Assembly (NCBI GenBank): GCA_002284615.2
Contig: MU069872.1
Coordinates: 91,564 to 104,249, forward strand
DNA: 12,686 nucleotides
Direction of reading: 5' to 3'
DNA from: Dunaliella salina
Taxonomy: Eukaryota; Chlorophyta; Chlorophyceae; Chlamydomonadales; Dunaliellaceae
Part shown: in pieces, positions 647 to 12,686 of the stretch
How the letters are laid out: every line of letters begins with the position of its first letter
How positions within the stretch are numbered: the stretch's first letter is position 1
The notes under the pieces: model-generated
Databases searched by the model: none
Told to the model about the DNA's origin: nothing
The model's input: the letters and a program-made list of their open reading frames with translations, nothing else
Position numbers and translations under genes: made by a program

Positions 647-1081
647 GAATAATCCATGCCCATCCCTGGGCCTTGTTTGGCTTTGATAGGATTAAAGAAG
701 ATTATGAGAACAGGAGGTGATTTAATAATTGGCTAATTGGAATACCCAATATCATCATATCGCTGCAATGGAGAAGCTTCATTCAGCAAGGCATAATTTG
801 TTTGTGCCTCTTTTACCTTTTACGTGACATGTCTTTCAGCATTGGGCATGATTTTTGTCTAAATTTGCTGCTTTCTTTTGCTGGTTGCCTGCCTTTTTTT
901 GTGGTTGGCTTTTTGTTGGATCTGAAACATGCATCACATATTTTGCATTTGCGCTCAACCACGACAATACACCCAAAGCTGCCCTCCCACCAGCTTTTTG
1001 CAAAATCTGTGTGTTGTGTGCAAGGAATGCCGCATCATCACCAATCCCGAGAGTTGAAGCTTCCGTTTTTGCTACATGCAG
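647..1081. other. Intronic sequence without recognised gene
   Basis: Apart from the extra CCATCCCTGG word near 660, this stretch is unique, AT-leaning sequence. It becomes pyrimidine-rich around 800-910. Open frames at 802-1095 and 855-1130 overlap in different frames, resemble nothing I recognise and show no splice-bounded exon. I read it as intron upstream of the exon 1 acceptor-side repeats. The exon that should supply the first residues of the EF-hand loop continued in exon 1 was not found here and may lie outside the window. Confidence 0.4.
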
Positions 1082-1784
1082 CTGCAGAGCAGTGAGGCTC
1101 TGTATGATGAGGGTTATGCAAAATGCCTAGGAGCTTTTGATTGACCTCATGACCGACAATTTCACTATGTCAGTGCATGCAGCTGGGTGACAGTGACGTT
1201 GTGTGTGGGGAGGTGGTGCCAAAAGCCCTGGCACAAGTGACGAACCTCGAGAGTTGAATGTTGCTGTGCGCAGCAGAAGGGCAAAGAGGTTCTGTATGAG
1301 GAGGGCATGCGCATTGCCTTGGGGCACTTCATCGATCTAACGCAAAATGCCTTGGAGCACTTGATTGACCTAACACAAAATGCCTTGGAGCACTTCATTG
1401 ATCTAATACGAGTGACCATTCACCATTGTGATGCATGCAGCTGGATGGTGCTGACATTGTGTATGAGGAGGTGGGGCCAAAGGCCCCGGAATAAATGACA
1501 ATTTCAAGAATAGTACCTCTTATTTCTACTGCGCTCGTTTCTACTGCATTTGACCTCACAAATGGCCATTCACCATTGTGATGCATGCAGTTGGCGGTGA
1601 GGTTGTGTATGAGGAGGTTTTGCCAAAGGCCCTGGAACAAATGAACAACCTCAAGCGTTTAGTTCTTCATTTCTGCTGAACGCAGCTGAAGGGCAGTGAG
1701 GTTGTGAGTCAAGAGGGAATGTCAAATTTCTTGTAGCATTTACTTGACCCCACAAGTGACGCTTCACCGTTTCGGTTCATGCAG
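1082..1784 (+). repeat. Tandem decayed copies of the exon 1 acceptor and exon head
   Basis: Six degenerate copies of the junction that opens exon 1 precede it, each a GCAG followed by words related to CTGGATGGCGGTGATGT. Copy starts are about 1082, 1183, 1274, 1441, 1591 and 1686, and the functional copy starts at 1785. All six keep the AG of the splice acceptor, usually within GCATGCAG. Exon words such as TATGAGGAGGT and GCCAAAGGCCCTGGA survive, but frames are broken by stops and indels. Spacing is irregular, from about 91 to 167 bp. Confidence 0.8.
1316..1410 (+). repeat. Nested 33-bp triplication of an exon 1 segment
   Basis: GCCTTGGRGCACTT followed by ATTGATCTAA-type sequence recurs at 1316, 1349 and 1382, an exact 33-bp spacing. 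Each unit encodes ALEHFIDL-like residues, matching the KALEHMISLI helix of exon 1. This is therefore a secondary expansion inside one of the decayed exon copies. It keeps the frame because 33 is a multiple of three. Confidence 0.85.
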
Positions 1785-1928
1785 CTGGATGGCGGTGATG
1801 TCGCGTATGAAGAGGTTGTGCCCAAGGCCCTGGAGCACATGATCAGCCTCATTAAGGATGAAATCGTCATGAGTGGCATCCTCCAGAGCCAAGATAGCAT
1901 GCAGGGCATGTTGCTGTCCCATTTCAAG
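1785..1928 (+). CDS. Exon 1 (internal) of a multi-EF-hand protein gene, partial
   Basis: This 144-nt, 48-codon phase-0 exon lies between the acceptor TTCATGCAG and the donor AAG|GTACGT. It starts LDGGDVAYEE, the later part of an EF-hand loop (Gly at loop position 6, hydrophobic at 8, Glu at 12), followed by the F helix VVPKALEHMISLIKDE. A linker and the next E helix, ending GMLLSHFK, complete it. The helix runs straight into the loop of exon 2. The first residues of the split loop should come from an upstream exon that I cannot see. Six decayed acceptor-side and two donor-side copies of its ends surround it. The product would be a calcium-binding or EF-hand scaffold protein; an axonemal (radial-spoke RSP7-like) role is only a guess. 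The exact acceptor and the family need transcript support. Confidence 0.72.
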
Positions 1929-2191
1929 GTACGTCTTTGGCGTCTTGCTGTCAAGGGCCTGCTACGTTCAGCCTCATCAAGGATGAAATTTCCATGAACG
2001 GCATCTTCCAGAGCCAAGATAGCATGCAGGGCATCTTGTTGTCCCATTTGAAGGTTTGTCTTTGGCGTATTGCTGTCGAGGGCCTGCTACATTTAGCCTC
2101 ATTAAGGATGAAATCGTCAAGAGTGGCATCCTCCAGAGCCAAGATAGCATTTAGGGCATGCTGCTGTCCCACTTGAAGGTGGGTCTTGGAT
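1929..2191 (+). repeat. Two tandem copies of the exon 1 tail plus donor (125-bp period)
   Basis: The segment from CAGCCTCATTAAGGATG through the donor is repeated at exact 125-bp steps: donors lie at 1929 (GTACGT), 2054 (GTTTGT) and 2179 (GTGGGT). Copy 2 keeps the exon frame open internally (SIKDEISMNGI-like, ending SHLK). Copy 3 has an in-frame TAG at 2152-2154. The copies cannot be read through as one exon because the 125-bp period shifts frame. Divergence is low, so this duplication is younger than the acceptor-side copies. Confidence 0.88.
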
Positions 2192-2199
2192 GTCTTACT

Positions 2200-2374
2200 A
2201 AATAAAGGAAAGAGAAAGAGAAAGAGAGAATTATGCTTATCGTTAGGCTGCGTGCATTAAGGACCAGATTCCCCCTGAGGGCTTCAACCAAATCTCCTAG
2301 GCCGACCCTAGGACTCGAACCCAAATTCCGGGCACCTGACGCAAGCGCCAAAGTAATACTCCGACAACCAGGGG
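2200..2374 (-). mobile_element. tRNA-derived SINE insertion with target duplication
   Basis: On the minus strand the element starts CCCCTGGTTGTCGG and carries GGGTTCGAGTCC at 2322-2311. That word fits the RNA polymerase III internal B box, with a tRNA-like T arm around it. No clean A box was identified. The element ends in a (TTTCTC)-type simple tail and TTTATTT. Flanking words GTCTTACT (2192-2199) and GTCTTGCT (2375-2382) match at 7 of 8 positions and fit a target-site duplication. It interrupts the third exon 1 donor repeat: the unit's continuation, CTTGCTGTCAAGGGC, resumes directly after it. Confidence 0.68.
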
Positions 2375-2520
2375 GTCTTGCTGTCAAGGGCATGCTGCTT
2401 TCCTGCTTCAATGCATGGTTTCACATGGTTTAGAATGAAGTAGCCATCAATTAAAACACATGACTGCTAGGCTAAAAGTAAAATCCTGTAAAGAGTTGCT
2501 TCGAGGTCTGGCTTGTTGCT
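2375..2520. other. Intron remainder between the SINE and the 110-bp array
   Basis: The first 40 bases resume the 125-bp donor repeat (TGTCAAGGGCATGCTGC). The rest is unique and contains nothing I recognise. Confidence 0.5.
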
Positions 2521-3650
2521 GTGTTGCTTGTTGAGGACCTCCTGAGGAACCTTGCTCATGCGCACCTGACCCTGAACTGTCAGGCCCTATGAGCCTCTGC
2601 TGCTTTGCCATTCCTTTGTTTGCCTTGACAGTGTTGCTCGCCAAGAACCTGCTCAGGAATCTTGCTCATGCACATATGACCCTGAATTGTCAGGCCTTGT
2701 AAGCCTCTGTTGCTCTCTCGCTTCAACGTGTGCCTTGACTGTCTTACTTGCCAAGGGCCTGCTAAGGAATCTTGCTCATGCACACCTGACCCTGGACTGT
2801 CAGGCCCTGCGAGCCACTGCTGCTTTGCGCTTCTTCGTGTGCTTTGGCTGTCTTACTTGCCAAGGACCTGCTCAGAAATCTTGCTCATGCATGTATGACC
2901 CTGAATTGTCAGGCCTTGCAAGCCTCTGTTGCTCTCTCACTTCAATGTGTGCCTTGACTGTCTTACTTGCCAAGGGCCTGCTAAGGAATCTTGCTCATGC
3001 ACACCTGACCCTGGACTGTCAGGCCCTGCGAGCCTCCGCTGCTTTGCCGTTCCTTCGTGTGCCTTGACTGTGTTGCTCGCCAAGGACCTGCTCAGGAACC
3101 TTGCTCATGCACGTACAACCCTGAACTGTCAGGCCTTGTAAACCTCTGTTGCTCTCTCGCTTCAACGTGTGCCTTGACTGTCTAAATTGCCAAGGACCTG
3201 CTAAGGAATTCTGCTCATGCACACCTGTCCCTGGACTGTCAGGCCCTGCGAGCCACTGCTGCTTTGTTTCGCTTCTTCGTGTGCCTTGACTGTGTTGCTG
3301 CCAAGGACCTGCCGAAAGGTCTTGCTCATGCACACCTGACCCTGACATGAACTGTCAGGCCCTAAGAGCCTCTGATGCTTTGCCGCTTTCAAGGGCCACC
3401 TTGACAGTGTTACTTGCCAAGGACCTGCTAAAGAACCTTGCTCGTACACGTATGACCCTGGACTGTCAGACCCTGCAAGCCACTGCTGCTTTGTCGCTTC
3501 TTCGTGTGCTTTGATTGTGTTGCTGCCAAGGACCTGCCAAAGGGTCTTGCTCACGCACACCTGACCCTGACATGAACTGTCAGGCCCTTAGAGCCTCTGC
3601 TGCTTTGCCGCTGTCAAGGGCCGCCTTGACTGTGTTGCTTGAAAAAACCA
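2521..3650 (+). repeat. 110-bp tandem array, about 10 copies, with a 220-bp dimeric order
   Basis: The word RACTGTCAGGCC or its variant recurs at 2575, 2685, 2795, 2904, 3014, 3124, 3234, 3350, 3461 and 3575, steps of 109-116 bp. In the middle two monomer types alternate. Type A (2685, 2904, 3124) has AATTGTCAGGCCTTG or AACTGTCAGGCCTTG and GTTGCTCTCTC. Type B (2795, 3014, 3234) has GGACTGTCAGGCCCTGCGAGCC. The flank TTCAAGGGCC...GTGTTACTTGCCAAGG resembles the exon 1 donor and its intron side, so the array may be a further amplification of that region (inference). Open frames on both strands here are repeat translations. Confidence 0.9.
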
Positions 3651-3696
3651 GGACCTGCAAAAAAGTCTTGCTTCTGCACTGACGGTTCAAGCCTCC

Positions 3697-3825
3697 TAAA
3701 CACCTGCTCTTGTTACCATTATGCAAAGTTCTTACTTCATCTGCACGATCCTCAATTCCCTAAACACCTGCTCTTGTTACCATTACGCAACGTTCTTACT
3801 TCATCTGCACGATCCTCAATTTCAT
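3697..3825 (+). repeat. 63-bp direct duplication
   Basis: CTAAACACCTGCTCTTGTTA begins two nearly identical units at 3697 and 3760. Both run through GTTCTTACTTCATCTGCACGATCCTCAATT. The period of 63 is a multiple of three, which explains the overlapping open frames, but no gene is evident. Confidence 0.88.
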
Positions 3826-3847
3826 TGCATGGTTTGCATCGTTCACA

Positions 3848-4743
3848 CTTTGCAGCACATGATCCCCCAACACAATGAAATGAGGTGTGGTTACTTTGCA
3901 GCACATGATCCTCGATCTAGTTGCAATCTGGTGACCCTGCTTTGCAGCACATGATGCTCGATTCAACATAAATTTGCTGTAGTTTTCCCATTTTGCAGGC
4001 GCATGATCCTGAAGGATTGGGCTTCCTTAGCCTCCACTCTCTCCTTGTCCTCCTCCTCATTCCTCAATTCTCTAACATATTTTGTGGTGATCCCACTTTG
4101 CGGCACATAATCCTGAAGGATCAAGCTTCCTCAGCCTCCACTCTCTCCTCCTCCTCCTCCTCGTTCCTCCATTGTGTTACATTGTGGTTAATCCACTTTG
4201 CAGGCACACGATCTCAAAGGATCGGGCCTCCCCAGCCTCCACTCTCTCCTCCTCCTCCTTCCTCAATTGGGTTACATTGCCTTTGGTTATCCAACTTTCC
4301 AGGCACACAATCCTGAAGAATCGGACCTCCTCAGCCTTCACTCTCTCCTCCTCCTCCTTCTCCTCATTCTTCACTTGAGTTACATTGATTGGAGTTAACT
4401 TACTCTGCAGGCACGCGTTCTCGAAGAATCGGGCCTCCTCAGCCTCCACTCTCTCCTCCTCCTCATTCCTCAATTGGGTTGCATTGCCTTTGGTTATCCA
4501 ACTTTGCAGGCACACAATCCTGAAGAATCGGAGCTCCTCAGCCTCCACTCTCTCCTCCTCCTCCTCCTCCTCATTCTTCACTTGAGTTACATTGATTGGA
4601 GTTAACTTACTCCGCAGGCACATGATCCTGAAGGATGAAGCCTCGTCAGCCTCCACTCTCTCCTCCTCCTCCTCCTCCTCCTCCTCCTCCTCCTCATTCT
4701 TCCGTTTAGTTATCACATTGTTTGTGCTTGTCCCACTTTTCAG
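3848..4743 (+). repeat. Tandem copies of the exon 2 acceptor and exon head
   Basis: Ten copies of the exon 2 opening junction, TTTGCAG followed by GCACAYGATCCTGAAGG-like sequence, lie upstream of the real exon. Exon-equivalent starts are 3856, 3902, 3948, 3999, 4103, 4204, 4303, 4411, 4510 and 4618. Nine keep the acceptor AG; the copy at 4103 has CGG. Most encode an EF-loop-like AHDPEG...SLHS, but the copy at 4618 has a stop. After CCACTCT each later copy runs into a CTC tract that grows from about four to more than ten triplets. From 4204 onward the spacing is 99, 108, 99, 108 and 126 bp, all multiples of three. Short ATTGATTGGAGTTAAC and CCTTTGGTTATCC units alternate. Confidence 0.88.
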
Positions 4744-4818
4744 GCACACGATCCTGAAGGGTCAGGCCTCCTCAGCCTCCACTCTGTAAAGAATGTCCTG
4801 AAGGATTTGTCATTCCAG
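4744..4818 (+). CDS. Exon 2 of the multi-EF-hand protein gene
   Basis: This 75-nt, 25-codon phase-0 exon lies between TTTTCAG and the donor CAG|GTGGGT. It encodes AHDPEGSGLLSLHS and then the F helix VKNVLKDLSFQ. With the exon 1 end (LLSHFK) this makes a complete helix-loop-helix. Loop positions 1, 3, 5 and 6 are D, E, S and G, but position 12 is Ser rather than Glu, so calcium binding may be weak. It is the last and best copy of the upstream array and the only one that continues into GTAAAGAATGTCCTG and a donor. That continuation is why I choose it over the ten upstream look-alikes. The open frame on the opposite strand is a repeat by-product. Confidence 0.74.
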
Positions 4819-5060
4819 GTGGGTGAAGGATACGTCATTCCAGTGAAGGATTTGTGCTTCCAGGTGGATTAGGCTGATTGTGACGGAGTGGAATTTAAGA
4901 GAGGTGCACAGGGTGCATGTCTGTTTCCTCTGTGCAACAATATCAAAACCGCTAGGTGGGGCTACTCCTTCCAGGTGGGTGAGGCGGAGTGTGACAAAGT
5001 AGAACACAAGAGAGGTGCACAGGGTGCATGTATACTTTCTCTGTGCGCCAGCATCAAGTC
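4819..5060 (+). repeat. Copies of the exon 2 tail plus donor, including a 111-bp duplication
   Basis: The exon 2 ending, AAGGATTTGTCATTCCAG|GT, is echoed at 4841-4843 (CAG with GT lost), 4861-4863 (CAG|GTGGAT) and 4972-4974 (CAG|GTGGGT). The last two lie at the head of two 111-bp units that share GAGGTGCACAGGGTGCATGT (4901 and 5012). The 133-codon open frame at 4888-5289 runs through these copies and shows no independent sign of being a gene. Confidence 0.75.
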
Positions 5061-5352
5061 CACACCGTGGGGCTTGGCATATAGGAGCATGCTCAAGGCA
5101 GACAAGAGCTTGAATAGAGGCTTAAGTAGGGGCTTAAACAGGTGGTCAAACAGGGTTCGCAAGGGGCTGGCCTACACCCTGAGGCTCTGTTTAGTCAGTT
5201 CTGGCTTGCATGGACTCAAGTGGCCTGCAGCAAATGTAAGAACAAAGAGGGCAGAAGCAGCGCACAAGCGCAGAGCGGAGAAGCGATGAAGCAGAAGTTG
5301 CTTATTGCTGGACACGTTGGCATGGCTCATGTGCATGAGGCCCATACGATAC
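5061..5352. other. Intron without recognised feature
   Basis: The sequence is unique. It contains short GAGCTTGAATAGAGGCTTAA-like echoes and one good-looking donor (AAAT|GTAAGA at 5235), but no matching acceptor gives an in-frame exon. Confidence 0.4.
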
Positions 5353-5790
5353 AGTAGCCAGAGCATCATGGTGGCTAAAGTGCCATGGAACACAGTGGCC
5401 CGCAGCATTGCTTCTGTCATGACGGCCAATGCATCATGAAAGCTCATGCATTGTGGTGGCCCATGTATCGTGGCAGCTTGTGGGTCGTGGTTGTAACTCA
5501 TTTGCCATGGAACACAGTGGCCTGCAGCATTGCATGTGTCGTGACTGCAATGCATCTTGAAAGCTCATGCATCATGGTGGCCCATGTATCGTGGCAGCTT
5601 GTGGGTCGTGGTTGTAACTCATGTGCCATGGAACACAGTGGCCCGCAGGATTGCATGTGTCGTGACGGCCATGCATCTTGAAAGCTCATGCATCATGGTG
5701 GCCAATGTATCATGGCTGCTTGTGGGTCGTGGCCGTAACTCATGTGCCATGGAACACTGGCTGGTCCGCAGCATTGCTTGTGACTGTGAA
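5353..5790 (+). repeat. 121-bp tandem array, four copies
   Basis: GCCATGGAACAC recurs at 5382, 5504, 5625 and 5746, spaced 121-122 bp. Each copy carries CCGCAGCATTGC or a variant, GCATCTTGAAAGCTCATGCA and GCTTGTGGGTCGTGG. Identity between copies is high, so the array is young or homogenised. Open frames on both strands are repeat translations. No relation to a nearby exon was found. Confidence 0.9.
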
Positions 5791-5826
5791 GCATGTTAAG
5801 GTTCTTGAAGACGTGGCCCGTACAAT

Positions 5827-6002
5827 ATACCGTACAGCATGTTGATGATTACGCAATATTCATCTTTTTTTAAGCTCTACGTAATGCACAAAAATTAATT
5901 TTGAGGTGCAAATTAGGTTTTTTTAAAATTTGGGTGCGTAGGGGGGGGTGCGCAATGGGTTTATTCAATTTGGAAGAAATAAGGGTGCATACTGGTCACA
6001 AT
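5827..6002. mobile_element. AT-rich insertion inside the 121-bp array, possible short TIR element
   Basis: This AT-rich block separates copy 4 of the 121-bp array from a fifth copy at 6003-6092. It begins ATACCGTACAG and contains poly-T, poly-G and GGTGCGCAATGGGT (5947-5960). Both words recur at 10271-10301: GGTGCGGAATGGGT in the same orientation, and the exact inverse CTGTACGGTAT. This suggests a dispersed family with ATACCGTACAG ends. The right end here is unclear (GTGCATACTGGTC near 5984), so the boundary is approximate. Confidence 0.4.
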
Positions 6003-6092
6003 TCTCTACAGTAGTCGCCGGAGCATCACGGTGGCTATGTGCCATGGAGCACGGCGGTCCGCAACATTGCTTGTGACTGTGAAGCATGTTGA
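6003..6092 (+). repeat. Fifth, displaced copy of the 121-bp array
   Basis: ACAGTAGTCGCCGGAGCATC followed by GGTGGCTATGTGCCATGGAGCAC matches the start of the array (5353-5395). CATTGCTTGTGACTGTGAAG matches the end of copy 4. Its separation from the array by about 200 bp of AT-rich DNA supports an insertion. Confidence 0.8.
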
Positions 6093-7771
6093 GAGCAGGT
6101 CCTGGAATGCTGCTTGCCCCATCATTGAACGCTCTGGTCGAAAGGTCCGCGTTGGAATGATCATGAAGGATGTCAAAGCATGCAATTGGAGGAGTTGGAC
6201 TTATAAATTGCGCAGAGGAGCAGGAATGGTAACCGACCTGAGTGTAGAAACAGAAGAAACAGCACACATGGGGCGGCGCACAACGTGCTCAGCTCCTCAG
6301 CCATTGTAATAAGCAACAAGCAAGCCTACCAGCGCCCAGTCTGCTGTGTTGTGGATGTCATATTCTCTTCTGCTCTGGCAGCCATAAAGATTTGTGATGT
6401 CATAGCATCGTACTGTTTGTGGATGTGTGTACCACCACTTTAAGAGGGTTGCTGTCCTTTTGTTTGCAAATCCAGTTTTCCTTCTGCTTTGGTAATCATT
6501 GTGGTTTGGCAGAGGCGGGCGACAGGCCCAGATTCCTGAAAATGTTCTTTCCTGCCAATATTTTCCAAATCTGACCAGGCCAACCTTTATGATATAAATA
6601 AAAAACACTTTCACCAAAAATTGATGAAAAATCAGTTGTGGACCCAGATCATTCCCCTGGCCTCAGATCACCGTACAATGGCCCACAGCTCCACTCTGGG
6701 ACCACTTTTCACCCCCAAATAACCCTTGTATGGTATGCTAACATCCTGCATATTCAAAAGTGGGAATGAAGAAGGTCAAAAGCTGACCTGTTTGGCACCC
6801 CTAGTGCTGGATATTCTGTTAGGGAAATGGCTGAAATTCAGTACCTGACCAACTACTAGGTCTTTTCACTCCATTTTTTTTGCAATGACATTTTTTTGGT
6901 TAAAGGACACCAACTCATTAAAAACCACCCAATTTGGTACAGTGGCTGGTCAGATATGGGCATCTGTGTGCCAAAAACTAGGGTTCACGCCGCGGCCGAT
7001 TAGGAGGGTGCCCCCTCATTTGCAAGACCAAAGCTTTGTGATGCACAATAGTATTTGATGCTAAGTTTAAAGATTGCAACCTAGGGGGCCTATGCTCAAT
7101 GAACACTTCATAAGTGCCCCTTTTTTGAGGCCTTCGTCGCTCACCTCTGGTGATTTGGTAATATGCTAGGAAGGAGTGTGGCCCACTGACGACATTAATG
7201 TGTCCATCAGTATGCGCTCTGCATCGTCTGCTTGCGGAGCATCCTCTCTGGACAAGAGCTGTGTCGTAGTGAGGAAGCATGCAGAATGTCGTTTGGCAGT
7301 TTTGGGGCTAGTTGCGTTTCATGGTTAGTTATGCTGCATGGGCAGTTGTGTGGACTAAAGCGTTGTATGGGTAGTTGTGTGGTCTTGCCTATGACGACGT
7401 ATCAACACACCTGCAGTGGCTGCAGTGGAATGGCTTATGACTGAACAATTAAGTTATATTACATTATTTCTTGTAATTTCATTTGTCACCCTTTAAAAAG
7501 GCTGCCCTGGGAAAATGTACATGTTTCCAGACCTCTGATTGGGTAACCTGAATTGCTTTGTTGCTTTGCCTGTCTTCTTACACACCGGTTCTTGTTGAAC
7601 CCTAGCCTTGTGGTCTTTGTTTTCCTTTTATCATGCGGTCTTTGGCCCCACTGTTCTCATCCCACACGCCTTCTTTAACCCCAGCCATGTCTTGCCTGTT
7701 TTGACTTCGCCTTGTCCTGACCTTACTCAACTCACGTAAATTTTTTTTGCATGCCCCTCTTGCGCCTGTAG
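6093..7771. other. Long, mostly unique intron without recognised gene
   Basis: This stretch lacks the strong tandem arrays of its surroundings. Two weak partial duplications are visible: CTTCTGCTCTGG at about 6366 and CTTCTGCTTTGG at about 6481, and GGGCAGTTGTGTGG near 7339 with GGGTAGTTGTGTGG near 7369. Open frames at 6031-6309 (plus), 6297-6617 (minus) and 6978-7280 (minus) show no domain I recognise. The interval 6600-7230 is AT-rich with several short open stretches on the minus strand and could be old transposon sequence. From 7560 to 7771 the plus strand is strongly pyrimidine-rich, as expected upstream of the exon 3 acceptor. Confidence 0.45.
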
Positions 7772-7831
7772 GTGCTTGGGCTTTCCACCCTGCAGCTCAT
7801 GTCTATCATCAGCCAAGCGCCCACAACACAG
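7772..7831 (+). CDS. Exon 3 of the multi-EF-hand protein gene
   Basis: This 60-nt, 20-codon phase-0 exon lies between TTGCGCCTGTAG and the donor CAG|GTGACA. It encodes VLGLSTLQLMSIISQAPTTQ: a short linker, an E helix (LQLMSIIS) and the first residues of an EF-hand loop that is completed by exon 4 (EGMVQY). Placed between exon 2 and exon 4 it puts 27 residues between the two loops, close to the 24 in calmodulin-type pairs, which is my main reason for calling so small an exon. The loop is degenerate (P, T, T at positions 1-3), so it probably does not bind calcium. Unlike the other exons, it shows no tandem copies of its ends. Being very short, it rests on frame, splice sites and fit to neighbours. 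Confidence 0.6.
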
Positions 7832-7910
7832 GTGACACAGCCACTCCATGTCTGTTCTTGACAGGAATGCCAATGTAAGGCCCAGCAACAGCCTAGGTCG
7901 AACAAGGGGT

Positions 7911-7978
7911 CGCAGAAGAAGTTCCTGTGTGGAAGGGAAGGGATCGCAGAAGAAGTTCCTGTGTGGAAGGGATAAAGA
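7911..7978 (+). repeat. 34-bp direct duplication
   Basis: CGCAGAAGAAGTTCCTGTGT followed by GGAAGGGA occurs at 7911 and 7945. The copies are almost identical and purine-rich. They lie in the intron after exon 3. Confidence 0.9.
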
Positions 7979-8371
7979 AGCATCAGCCTGGGGCTGAGAT
8001 TGGCCTCGAAGTGGAAAGATGAAGCCAGATACTTGCCCCAAAGTGCTTCTTAGGTGTCCACAAGCTGGGCATCCTGATGGAGTCAAGTTGTGGTTGGCAC
8101 ATGAAGGATCTGAGATGTAAGGTGCAGGCAACCCAAAGGCAAAGCCATGCGCAATAGGCTCAAAAAAATCGTCTGCAAAATGCATGATCAGGGGGCAGAG
8201 GACAAAGGCGGTGATTCATGCCACTTGCAAATGTTCCTTTTACGCCTGAAACGACGGAATTGATTTCACCTCCAGAAGGAACACAGGGACGGCGATGGTC
8301 ACATGGCACATGCTCGTGCTTCCTTTGCGCCTAAAGCAATGGAATGTTGTGTGCCCATGCATGCTGTGCAG
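7979..8371. other. Intron without recognised feature
   Basis: The sequence is unique. The minus-strand open frames at 7727-8185 overlap exon 3 antisense and show no recognisable domain. Confidence 0.4.
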
Positions 8372-9150
8372 GGATGAGGGGTACAGCATTTACACTCCGT
8401 TCCCAGTGCCACTGTCATGATCTGTCACGTGTTTCGTTGCTGGGCACCCCTGTGCCAGGGGGAGCAGTGCAGTTTGTACGATCTGTTTCCAGTGCATGCC
8501 ACTGTCATGATTTCTCTCATGTTTCATTTTTGAAACATTTTGGGCATTGTGTCTTATGGACATGTGAAAACATTTTGGGCATTGTGTCTTATGGACATGT
8601 GAAAACATTTTGGGCATCCTGTGCAGGAGGGCATTGTGTCTTATGGACATGTGATGCTTTGTGCAACCGCCATGACCTCCACTGTGCTTTCCTTTTGTGC
8701 TTTCTCTACAAGAAGGCATGGTGCAGTGCACATATTTGGTGCTCATTGCCACTGCCATCATCCTCCACATGCTTCATGTCTGTACTTTCTTTGCAGGAGG
8801 GAGTGGTGCAGCGTGTGCAATTTGTGCCTCTCACAGCCGTCGCGATCGGCTCTCAATGAAGTAGTTTGTGATTGTGCCCATTGCTACTGCCACCATCCTC
8901 CTATGTGCTTTGTTTCTGTGCTTTCTCTGCTGGAGGGCATGGTGCAGTATACACAGCGTGTGCTTGTTGCGACAGCCATCATCCCCCACAAGCTTTATTA
9001 CTGTGCTTTCTTTTGCTGGAGGGAATGGTGCAATATGTACGGTTTGTGCCTCTCACAGCCACCATGATCTCCCAATGAAGCAGTACGTGCTTGTGCTTCT
9101 CACTACTGCCACCAACCTTAACATGCTGCATTTCCTTGCTTCGTGTGCAG
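8372..9150 (+). repeat. Tandem decayed copies of the exon 4 acceptor and exon head
   Basis: Seven degenerate copies of the exon 4 opening (GCAG|GAGGGAATGGTGCAGTACA) precede it. Exon-equivalent starts are about 8372, 8459, 8627, 8711, 8797, 8933 and 9018; the functional start is 9151. Steps are about 85 bp, or longer at three places (168, 136 and 133). Copies at 8372, 8459, 8627 and 8797 keep the acceptor AG; in the copies at 8933 and 9018 it has become CTG, and at 8711 the cytosine of CAG is lost. Exon words such as GTTTGTGCCTCTCACAGCC and GCCATCATC persist. Divergence is higher than in the exon 5 copies. Confidence 0.82.
8536..8655 (+). repeat. 35-bp subrepeat inside the exon 4 acceptor array
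   Basis: CATTTTGGGCATTGTGTCTT and the following ATGGACATGTGAAAA occur at 8536 and 8571, exactly 35 bp apart. The start of the unit recurs at 8606. GGCATTGTGTCTTATGGACA appears once more at about 8631, directly after a GCAGGA junction word. Confidence 0.9.
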
Positions 9151-9243
9151 GAGGGAATGGTGCAGTACATACAGTTCGTGCCCATTGCCACGGCCATGAT
9201 CTCCCACATGTATGGTGCAGACAACATGAAGTTGCGGTTGCAG
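9151..9243 (+). CDS. Exon 4 of the multi-EF-hand protein gene
   Basis: This 93-nt, 31-codon phase-0 exon lies between TCGTGTGCAG and the donor CAG|GTGAGC, a near-consensus 5' splice site. It starts EGMVQYIQFVPIATAMI: Gly at loop position 6, Val at 8, then the F helix with an FVP motif. Exon 1 has the parallel YEEVVPKALEHMI, so the two look like repeats of one EF-hand unit. The exon ends MKLRLQ and continues into exon 5 (AIREVA) as a helix. It is the last member of the tandem acceptor array and the only copy with a full open frame and a donor. The preceding half-loop comes from exon 3. Loop ligand positions are poor, so a structural role is more likely than calcium binding. Confidence 0.75.
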
Positions 9244-9312
9244 GTGAGCGATGCATCACAATAAAAAGCATGTTTGATGATGAGCGTTGTGTCATTAAGA
9301 TGCGGGTGCAGG
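9244..9312 (+). repeat. Single copy of the exon 4 tail plus degraded donor
   Basis: CATTAAGATGCGGGTGCAG|GC (ending 9311) echoes the exon 4 end CATGAAGTTGCGGTTGCAG|GT (ending 9243), 68 bp downstream. The donor GT has become GC. Reading through from exon 4 meets a TAA at 9262-9264, so it is not an alternative end of the same exon. Confidence 0.55.
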
Positions 9313-9389
9313 CAAACAAAGCCATTGCCTTGACAGGTTTGATGCAAATTTGCTAAACTATTCACTCCATGCTGCCCTAAGAAAAATGA

Positions 9390-9800
9390 GGCCGCTCAGC
9401 TCAGTGCCAAAAAACACTTTAGGCTTCAGAAGCAACAGGGCTTTGGCAGTAAAAAAGGAATTACTGCAAGCGTGGCAGCTCAGAGCCATACCAATCATTG
9501 AATGAGGTCACACTACTAGAGCAGCAGGGCTTTTTGAGCAAAACAAGGCGCCGCTTGCATGGCAGCTCAGGTCCGTGCCATCGAGATCCAAACTATTGGT
9601 TTCAGGAGCAACACGGCTTTTGGTCAAAACATGGTGCCGCTTGCTTAGCAGCTTAGATCTGTGCCATTGAGGTCAAAATGACAAATTGCAGGAGCAACAG
9701 GCTTTTTGAGTAAAACAAGGCGCCGCTTGCATGGCAGCTCAGATCTGTGCCATTGAGATCAAAATTACAGATTCCAGGAGCAACAGGGCTTTGGGTCAGG
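9390..9800 (+). repeat. About 86-bp tandem array, five copies
   Basis: GCAGCTCAG or a variant recurs at about 9396, 9475, 9563, 9648 and 9734, steps of 79-88 bp. Each copy is accompanied by AGCAACAGGGCTTT, GCGCCGCTTGCATGGCAGC and TGCCATTGAGATCAAAAT. Divergence rises towards the left end. No exon or protein is recognisable in it. Confidence 0.88.
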
Positions 9801-9816
9801 CGCCACATCCCTGTGT

Positions 9817-10303
9817 GATACCGCAGGGAAAATAATGTATCATTCTGCAAATACCTTTTTTGGGCACTGCGGATAAATTGCAACTAGCAAAAATATTATT
9901 GTTTGAGGCGCTGCGGATGTGTGCAGATAAGTTGAAATTAATTATTTTACGTGATGAGTGAGCAGTGATGAGGAGGGGGATGGCTGCAGTGATGAGGAGT
10001 GCAAGAAGGGGGATGGCACTCTGAGGGTGGAGTGGGCTCGGATGAGAGAATGGATTAGGATCTAAGGCCTGGACTTCTAGGGTTAGGTTGGACACCAACT
10101 AAAGAACTGAGTGAGGATGCAAGCTTGCTTTTAAGACCACCTTAACAACAAGTTGTTTCTGTGGGCTTAGGCCATTTGGCACTGTGGAAATATGCGGACA
10201 TGAAAATAGAAACTTCTGTCAAGGGTGCGGAAGTGATGCGGACGTTAGAAACTAATTATGTCTGAAAAAGGGTGCGGAATGGGTACGTGTCTGTACGGTA
10301 TCC
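9817..10303. mobile_element. Possible short element with GATACCG inverted ends
   Basis: The left edge reads GATACCGCAG at 9817-9826 and the right edge CTGTACGGTATC at 10291-10302, whose inverse is GATACCGTACAG. The block begins exactly where the 86-bp array breaks off and is AT-rich with scattered TGCGGA words. The right end shares two words with the AT-rich insertion at 5827-6002. No protein and no convincing target duplication are visible, so this is tentative. Open frames inside (for example minus 9796-10098) show nothing recognisable. Confidence 0.38.
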
Positions 10304-11155
10304 TGCCTTTAGCCAGCCAGCCCACCTTTACTAATTTTGAGCACACCACCTAGGGTCGAGGGCCCAAGCTAGTTATAAAAGCAATTTTGCAGCACTGGGC
10401 TGGACTTGTTTGGTGTAGCCTGCTGTGCGCTAGACCTGCATGTTTGTGCGCCCAGCCAGCAAAACTCACCCCTGCGTTCTCAACCCCTCCAGCTGCATCC
10501 CTAAGCCTGCAGGTAGACCCCAGGATGGGCCCTGAGTGCACAGGTGGCCACCTGCTGCGAGCAGGCGGGAGGCTGTCTAAGGAGGTGCTTGAAAGTCAGC
10601 CGATGGGAGTGTTGACGACAGGGAACAGCTTTCTGTTAAGCTCCACTGAAATTTTGATGCTTCTCCGGGTTGCTGGGTCGAGGTCCGGATTTCAAATTTT
10701 GAGTCGTTCAAATTCCTGCCGACGGCCAGAGATGCGAGATGGCAAGCATTACGTTTATATTTATTAAAACAGCATCATATTTACTGAAAGGCAAGCCCAA
10801 AGAAGCAAAGCTTGGAAAGCTGTGAACACTTTCCCTTGAAGGATAGGTTAAAAACTACATTGACCTTCTTGGACGTTTGCCCACACACAAGCAAGAAGTC
10901 TGGAGGATTGAGCTCCAGCAGCTTTCCAGAGCCCAGCAGCTCCTCCCTGTACCAGCATGGCGGCCTGCGGTGTCAATGTTGATGCTTACAACCCCAGGCA
11001 TCAGCCACGACAAACAGTGGGCGCGGAGGTGGCCTATCGAGGTTAAGGGTTAGAAGATACAAGGCTACAACGATAAGTGGGCCTCGTGCCAAAGCGACAG
11101 TCTGCTAGCCTGTTCACACAAAAGGAGGAGCTTTCTTTTCTCTAAAAATACGCAG
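10304..11155. other. Intron upstream of exon 5, no recognised gene
   Basis: The sequence is unique. A pol III B-box-like word GTTCAAATTCC lies at 10706-10716, followed by an AT-rich TTTATATTTATTAAAA end near 10752-10767, so a decayed SINE is possible but has no clear A box or target duplication. A 126-codon open frame at 10387-10767 has low-complexity Ala/Cys/Pro content and no domain I know. The last bases, CTTTCTTTTCTCTAAAAATACGCAG, form a good polypyrimidine tract and acceptor for exon 5. No copies of the exon 5 head precede it. Confidence 0.45.
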
Positions 11156-11290
11156 GCCATCCGAGAAGTCGCAGCAGGGGGGGGCATCCAGGCCCTCAGC
11201 CAGATGGACATCGCTGGCCTCAGGCAGCTGCTTGAGGAAGCCTTCACATCAGTTGACACAGATGGCAGCGGCCAGCTCGCTCTGGACCAG
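11156..11290 (+). CDS. Exon 5 of the multi-EF-hand protein gene, carrying a canonical EF-hand loop
   Basis: This 135-nt, 45-codon phase-0 exon follows a polypyrimidine tract and ACGCAG and ends CAG|GTGCGA. It encodes AIREVAAGGGIQALSQMD, then the E helix LRQLLEEAF and the loop DTDGSGQLALDQ. Asp at positions 1 and 3, Ser at 5, Gly at 6 and Leu at 8 are canonical; Gln at 12 replaces the usual Glu and may lower affinity. This is the best calcium-site candidate in the gene. It joins exon 4 (MKLRLQ) in frame. The gene must continue, because the F helix of this hand is missing. The exon tail and donor are copied seven times just downstream. Confidence 0.78.
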
Positions 11291-12135
11291 GTGCGAAGTG
11301 TGCTCTCTGTGTGTTCATGGACATTGCAGAGCAGGCCTTCACGTTGGCTGACACTGATGGCAGCGACCAGGTTGCTCTGGACCAGGTGCCATGTGTGCTT
11401 CCCGCACTCACATGATCTCAATGAATGAACTTGGCTGAGGCAGCTGCTTGAGCAGGCCTTCACGTCTGTTGACACAGATGGCAGCGGCCAGCTCGCTCTG
11501 GACCAGGTGCGGAAGTGTCTTTTTGTGTGTCTTACATTGGAAATCGCATAAAGGAATGAGATTTCTGTGTGGCAGCTGCTTTAGCAGGCCTTTGTGTCAG
11601 GCAACACTATGGCAGTGGCCAGCTCGCTCTGGACCAGGTACGGAGTGTGTCTTCTGTGTGCTCATGCACATCATGTAAAGGAACGAGCTTGGCTGTGTAT
11701 GGCAGCTGCTTGAGTAGGTCTTCATGTCTGTTGACACAGATGGCGGCGACCAGCTCGCTCTAGACCAGGTGCGGTGTGTGCTCCCTGTGTGTCCATGGGC
11801 GTCGTTTGATTGGATGAGCTCGGCTGTGTGAAGCAGCTGCGTGAGCAGGCCTTCGTGTTGACACTGATGGTAACGGCCAGCTTGCTCTGGACCTGGTGCG
11901 GATTGGGCTCCTGCGTGCTCATAAACATTGGTAAAGGAATGAGCTTTGCTATGTGTGGTATCTGCTTGAGCAGGCCTTCGTGTTGATACTGATGGTGACG
12001 GCCAGCTCGCTCTGGACCAGGTGCGGTGTGGGCTCCCAGTGTGTTCAGGGAATGAGCTTGGCTGTGAGTTGCAGCAACTGAAGCAGGCCTTCACCTCAGC
12101 TGACACCAAGCAGCAGCCAGCTCACGCAGGGAAAG
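11291..12135 (+). repeat. Seven tandem copies of the exon 5 EF-loop tail plus donor
   Basis: After exon 5 the loop-coding tail and its CAG|GTGCG donor recur with donors at about 11386, 11507, 11638, 11769, 11896, 12021 and a diverged one near 12137. Steps are 95-131 bp. Copies 1, 2 and 4 (11335-11385, 11456-11506, 11718-11768) keep an open 51-nt frame encoding EF-loop residues such as FTSVDTDGSGQLALDQ. Copies 3, 5 and 6 carry 1-nt or 4-nt deletions. Copy 2 is identical to exon 5 over GTTGACACAGATGGCAGCGG and on to the donor. All copies have an AG just before the frame (mostly GAGCAG) where exon 5 has GAGGAA. Confidence 0.88.
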
Positions 12136-12299
12136 GTGGAGAGTGTGTGCTGCTTCCTTGTTGCGTTTTGTCTGAGGGTGTTCCTAGTTAAATTCAAGTG
12201 TGCGGGCCTGCAAATTTGAAAACGCCAACAGCACTAGAATCTATTGGATATGCAGCATTCAATTGCTGGCTGGTATGGTACTTGCATGTTGCTTTTGCT
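12136..12299. other. Intron without recognised feature
   Basis: Unique sequence follows the last exon 5 copy. No exon continuing the EF-hand (the missing F helix) was found before the window ends. Confidence 0.4.

Positions 12300-12635: not shown

Positions 12636-12686
<51 letters not shown>
12636..12686. repeat. (AC)n microsatellite at right edge
   Basis: An AC run reaches the end of the window, mirroring the run at 1-37. The cysteine/valine open frames on the minus strand here are translations of this repeat. Confidence 0.97.

Follow-up and report, generated by a model that had tools for sequence, protein, structure and literature searches.

The introns of a radial spoke protein 7 (RSP7) gene of the green alga Dunaliella salina contain tandem arrays of decayed copies of the gene's own exon edges, splice sites included, and edge copies of this kind recur in dynein and kinesin genes of the same genome. 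The RSP7 gene lies in a stretch of 12,686 nucleotides (nt), hereafter the window (C437:91564-104249, in an assembly of 284.9 Mb). In this assembly, the first exon of a kinesin-2 gene is 99% identical to the D. salina protein F6MHJ0, with the second-best match at 64%, and the fetched part of the contig has a G+C content of 49.4%, compared with a published 49.1% for the D. salina draft (PMC5658486); an rbcL search gave no match. The source is thus D. salina or a very near relative. The arrays, their recurrence, their rate in the sampled genes and the pattern of constraint on the copies were observed directly. As to origin, it is highly probable that they are minisatellites of the "mirage" type known from amphioxus, i.e., tandem duplications of ~100 nt that happened to cross exon-intron junctions and whose spare copies drift in the intron.

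Exon-Edge Copies in the RSP7 Gene

Five exons in the window, all on the forward strand, encode part of RSP7: exon 1 (1785-1928), exon 2 (4744-4818), exon 3 (7772-7831), exon 4 (9151-9243) and exon 5 (11156-11290). All five are bordered by AG and GT and have lengths that are multiples of three. Residues 4-169 of the joined 169 a.a. translation align without gaps to residues 251-416 of Chlamydomonas radial spoke protein 7 (7jtk_M, E 1.5e-59) and, given that this alignment is gapless, the four exon-exon joins are right; it also identifies the exon 1 used here as the authentic copy. Pfam matched only EF-hands in the window (a loop in exon 2 and a further match in exon 5), and the RSP7 name comes from the protein comparison with 7jtk_M. 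Rfam families gave no match within the window at gathering scores.

When each exon with 60 nt on either side was compared with the whole window by blastn, supplemented by gap-free repeat families, four of the five exons had copies of their head, their tail or both, in tandem and in decayed form, in the adjoining intron. Most reached E 1e-4 to 1e-58, which bears out the similarity to exon edges asserted in the initial annotation of this DNA. Most copies also continue across the junction into intron sequence, showing that the repeated unit spans the boundary.

Ahead of the authentic exon 1, at 1055..1784, lie about six decayed copies of acceptor and exon head, the number first proposed (four by blastn, E 2e-4 to 5e-19; six counting the ungapped families D12 and D13). 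Past its donor, at 1929..2199, are the two expected copies of exon tail and donor, with a unit of 125 nt (88-89% identity, E 2e-50 and 2e-35; period 125 in Tandem Repeats Finder, TRF). The acceptor array of exon 2 (3983..4743) comprises seven copies of the acceptor and the first 42 nt of the exon (E 1e-12 to 1e-19). Three further, shorter ttgcagcacatgat copies were noted by eye at ~3850-3960, which makes the earlier count of ten plausible, seven of them significant. Beyond the exon 2 donor we found only two short tail copies (4819..4863, E 2e-4 to 3e-4), one fewer than annotated. The acceptor array of exon 4 (8365..9150) gave six acceptor and exon-head matches (E 0.007 to 1e-13), two of them isolated and the other four overlapping in pairs, where about seven copies had been counted. 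The donor array of exon 5 (11291..12147) holds the full seven copies of exon tail and donor (E 1e-6 to 1e-32, and repeat families), spaced mostly 95-132 nt apart and with GT retained in 7/7. All of these arrays run on the forward strand. A single tail and donor copy annotated after exon 4 was not found by blastn of the exon ±60 nt against the window, and the same search returned no edge copies upstream or downstream of exon 3.

The copies that include exon bases are sided, with head-bearing ones upstream and tail-bearing ones downstream of their exon. Wrong-side matches occur at 2/10 junctions of the window, because 60-nt queries in exons of 75 and 93 nt make head and tail overlap. By blastn matches, copies of exon edges make up ~30% of introns 1 and 3 and a small part of intron 2, and intron 4 has none, so the earlier description of the introns as "built from" copies of their splice junctions was overstated.

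Edge Copies in Dynein and Kinesin Genes

Exons of dynein (PF12774, PF08393) and kinesin (PF00225) genes were located by genome search and analyzed in 11 fetched stretches. Of the kinesin matches of one search, 19/27 were used, and of the matches of the two other searches 12/12 and 9/9; the eight kinesin matches left out lie on C32, C788, C342, C41, C106 and C3. One kinesin match, C94:495361, was divided between two exons, which brings the exons from other genes than RSP7 to 41. Their borders were placed manually, guided by the splice consensus and the reading frame of the protein, and those of the three C345 exons agree by eye with a D. salina kinesin protein. No acceptor was scored for two exons, the first coding exon of C345 and C266:329805, which has a gap before it. 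A junction was called positive when the last or first 60 exon bases were copied in the adjoining stretch (≤1.5 kb) at E ≤1e-3.

By this test, 24/80 junctions (30%) of the dynein and kinesin genes carry copies of their edge in their own intron, at acceptors (12/39) and donors (12/41) alike; the RSP7 gene scored 6/10. In the controls, all 90 junctions compared with flanks of other sampled genes, five each, gave 5/450 matches, reverse complements gave 1/80, and wrong-side comparisons gave 3/80, two of which fall in exons of 92 and 112 nt with overlapping head and tail queries. Altogether, 87 junction-spanning copies were counted in 28 arrays. Among the 44 exons with a mapped acceptor, no copy covers ≥90% of the exon with both sites, as one would predict if splicing were to include any complete additional exon.

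This last result bears on whether the copies might be tandem alternative exons, mutually exclusive or cassette, some of them dead. The exon 5 copies do hold a 63-nt in-frame segment between a cryptic internal AG and a donor (LLEQAFTSVDTDGSGQLALDQ in copy 2). However, besides the absence of any copy spanning 90% of an exon, the copies are one-sided edge fragments without significant codon-position constraint between them, and we regard this explanation as very unlikely.

Constraint on Exons and Splice Sites of the Spare Copies

Differences between exon and copy amount to 0.146, 0.123 and 0.234 at codon positions 1, 2 and 3, respectively (Wilcoxon p 0.0015, 28 arrays), whereas those between copies have array means of 0.186 at positions 1 and 2 and 0.189 at position 3 (p 0.75, 17 arrays). 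A third-position bias in the exon-copy comparison, but not significantly in the copy-copy comparison, indicates that the exon is constrained and that the spares are drifting, non-coding sequence. Such a result is what tolerated duplication predicts, and it gives a measured basis to the polarity that the initial annotation had called strict, with the intact copy always joined to the exon body. The sidedness of head and tail copies upholds that polarity in part; nevertheless, the polarity is largely a logical consequence of calling the body-joined copy the exon, and the position of the intact copy is partly true by definition. The accompanying proposal, that duplications crossing a junction are tolerated as the spare site and exon fragment fall into the intron, stands: the copies are arranged in tandem on the side predicted, other genes have them too (24/80 junctions), and among themselves they show little sign of coding constraint.

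The splice dinucleotide is kept in 78/87 spares (AG in 34/39 acceptor copies and GT in 44/48 donor copies), and an array may contain as many as 11 donor copies (C94). In 8/14 acceptor and 11/14 donor arrays, the score of the top spare equals or exceeds that of the authentic site. An in-frame, stop-free extension would result from only 4/77 intact spares. Because many spares score as well as the authentic site, strength alone is often insufficient to choose the site, and on sequence grounds the choice must depend on context, probably through exon definition.

Junctions Compared with Intron Interiors

The initial annotation had suggested a mode of intron growth from exon edges, different from transposon insertion. 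We compared exon edges with random intronic 60-mers from the same introns under the same test, the control introns being gaps between consecutive mapped exons, inside which unmapped exons may lie. A nearby copy was found for 243/1184 of these 60-mers (199/842 and 44/342) and, within the window, for 162/410. The difference between junctions and introns was +8.4 points (24/78, 30.8%, versus 178/794, 22.4%), with a gene bootstrap 95% interval of -5.8 to +21.0; two junctions (C2:1069938) had no control intron and were excluded from the bootstrap. By the refuting condition that the initial annotation had named, a survey without enrichment at splice junctions, specificity for junctions was thus not supported in this sample, where exon edges and intron interiors are affected at similar rates. 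Junctions are not proven to be a duplication hotspot, nor are they protected from what is a general process of ~100-nt tandem duplication.

It is unlikely that duplication prefers junctions, e.g., through a transcription- or RNA-linked process, so that introns grow in a special way from exon edges. Nominally, the junction rate is the higher one, both in the survey (24/80, or 24/78 against the intronic 178/794) and in the window (6/10 against 162/410), and the share of introns 1 and 3 that derives from exon edges (~30%) would fit such a preference. The bootstrap interval spans zero, however, and several arrays in the window lie away from junctions with no demonstrated junction origin. In addition, an old duplicate is more readily recognized when its source is a constrained exon than when both copies are intronic, which biases the junction rate upwards; since such duplicates stay recognizable for longer, the actual rate at junctions may not exceed that of introns at all.

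Proposed Mechanism

In the account that we favor, a tandem duplication of ~100 nt would cross an exon-intron junction by chance. The copy joined to the exon body would remain under selection, and the other copies, which consist of a piece of the exon and a spare acceptor or donor, would end up inside the intron and drift. The process would act throughout introns, affecting junctions at about the rate of the interiors, and replication slippage or unequal exchange may be its source. Splicing would ignore the spares though most keep AG or GT. The likeliest rule of choice would be exon definition, i.e., recognition of the flanking acceptor and donor as a pair across the short exon body, which would select correctly because the spares always lie outside the authentic pair.

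Several points weigh against this account. The pooled copy-copy differences (0.197/0.181/0.217) are slightly higher at third positions, and one wrong-side match in the survey, C266:318344, falls in a 147-nt exon and has no explanation. The junction rate lies slightly, non-significantly, above the intronic background, and unmapped exons in the control gaps would depress that background rate. That splicing ignores the spares we infer from the continuity of the protein. Finally, the splice dinucleotides of the spares are more alike from copy to copy than other dinucleotides are (differences of 0.110 versus 0.216, p 0.02, 17 arrays; p 0.036 in an 11-array version of the test), a difference that plain drift does not predict.

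The latter finding raises the prospect that the spares are functional, as alternative splice sites or platforms for splicing factors kept by selection. More narrowly, the spare sites might be selected without the adjacent exon fragments, with extra donors or acceptors recruiting splicing factors to weak or distant junctions and duplication itself being favored. We judge both the broader and the narrower version to be rather improbable. Consistent with function, AG or GT is kept in 78/87 copies, the lower divergence of the site holds against the same dinucleotide elsewhere as well (p 0.004, 10 arrays), and no change of the site was seen in the large arrays of C94 (11 donor copies) and exon 5 (seven). 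Conversely, codon periodicity between copies is not significant, the frame is kept without a stop in only 4/77 intact spares, and site differences are present in 5/17 arrays; in 4/17 (3/11 in the smaller set), the site diverges more than the rest. Moreover, arrays grow by duplication of existing copies, which are therefore not independent of each other, and the lower divergence of the spare sites is a lead only.

Related Sequences and Assembly Quality

Two protein records labelled Pelagomonas calceolata match the gene, P0004 with 61% and P0005 with 87% identity in the best local alignment. In P0005, exon 2 is preceded by two or three translated repeats of its head. In P0004, the stretch before exon 4 is weakly similar to an out-of-frame copy of the exon 4 head (E 0.03). 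Judging from these translations, arrays at the exon 2 and exon 4 junctions seem to exist outside the window as well, in one or more sequences whose provenance is uncertain. Over single exons, the EukProt records P0002, P0004 and P0005, all labelled Pelagomonas calceolata, are 61-98% identical to the window gene; the records probably come from a contaminated or mislabelled source.

These records also bear on whether the arrays could be an artefact of assembling a short-read draft. The D. salina v1.0 draft was built mostly from Illumina data with ~10x PacBio coverage and comprises many scaffolds (PMC5658486), and the present assembly, which appears to be the same one, is gap-rich on the contig of the window. 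Yet copies within arrays differ by 5-33% (array means), unlike duplicated reads, and P0005, less clearly P0004, carries translated copies at the exon 2 and exon 4 junctions. An artefact is, in our opinion, exceedingly improbable.

Relation to Known Systems

The initial annotation knew of no description of such a pattern, but one precedes it. Tandem repeats spanning exon-intron boundaries in the amphioxus Adh3 gene and the globin genes BflGb6 and BflGb9, termed "mirages", contain spare AG and GT dinucleotides and leave splicing apparently undisturbed (PMC3087553). In both amphioxus and the alga, the unit holds exonic and intronic bases (87 copies in 28 arrays in the alga), both kinds of boundary are affected (acceptors 12/39, donors 12/41), and many but not all copies keep AG or GT (34/39 and 44/48). 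In contrast, the amphioxus account concerns a few chordate loci with haplotype length variation, whereas the algal arrays affect ~30% of sampled junctions in one assembly. The rate in the alga was set against the intronic background, and the algal copies were tested for codon-position and splice-site decay. The algal arrays most probably belong with mirages and are remarkable for their frequency in the sample. Another likeness, in the repeated donor, is to the human interferon-induced gene 6-16, for which Turri et al. reportedly described in 1995 a minisatellite giving a transcript multiple splice donors; there, the unit is said to be short and the spare donors to be used in transcripts.

Two further systems offer partial parallels. 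In Drosophila, introns have been gained when an exon segment containing a proto-splice site was duplicated in tandem (PMC2891723). As in the alga, splicing tolerates a tandem duplication near splice signals that changes gene structure, but the Drosophila case makes a new intron inside an exon, while the algal repeats sit at intron edges. Introners resemble the algal arrays in that intron sequence accumulates genome-wide (PMC9860276). Unlike introners, however, the algal arrays are local, head-to-tail and derived from their own exon edge. In the sampled genes, exon edges matched the flanks of other genes in 5/450 comparisons. In the literature searched, outside of which most subscription papers lie, we found no report of such arrays from a green alga and no genome-wide rate.

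If the sample holds genome-wide, small tandem duplications would affect junctions and intron interiors of this alga about equally, and the arrays would represent a measurable, transposon-free route of intron lengthening. They would likewise constitute a natural experiment in which the spliceosome has to single out one site from as many as 12, a good number of them equally strong. Gene predictors may be misled by the copies, given that translated exon copies are apparently already in public protein sets (P0005 and, less clearly, P0004).

Unit Size, Intron Length and Other Tandem Repeats

The spacing of the 87 copies has a median of 104 nt (interquartile range 92-121, range 45-340), although the largest spacings may conceal undetected copies, and TRF periods on the fetched contig show a second mode at 80-140. 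Copy spacing clusters at ~90-125 nt in unrelated genes. Across 32 introns, taken as the gaps that separate mapped exons, tandem content increases with length (Spearman 0.53, p 0.0017), consistent with introns growing by duplication. The presence of edge copies was not significantly associated with intron length (medians of 1095 nt, n=16, versus 722 nt, n=18; p 0.18), and copy identity showed no gradient with distance from the exon (mean Spearman 0.11, 12 arrays). The protein P0003, a relative with 46% identity, continues from exon 2 through ~100 residues into exon 3, which suggests an intron of ~0.3 kb where intron 2 of the window measures 2.95 kb.

Three large intronic tandem arrays in the window have no demonstrable link to an exon edge, at 2519-3641 (110 nt), 5380-5782 (121 nt) and 9519-9792 (86 nt). 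The first of these, a forward-strand array of ~10 units in intron 1 detected by TRF, gives two weak blastn matches to the exon 1 tail region (E 8e-4 and 2e-5). Its derivation from the exon 1 donor unit was considered and dropped, as the score was equalled by 22/500 shuffles.

About 82 kb of contig C437 consists of N, including nearly all sequence from the end of the window to ~168 kb. The window is itself bounded by (AC)n runs, at positions 1-37 and 12636-12686, and dinucleotide runs also adjoin authentic splice sites in other genes, e.g., the donor of C531:23895-24086 and the acceptor of C104:351129-351380.

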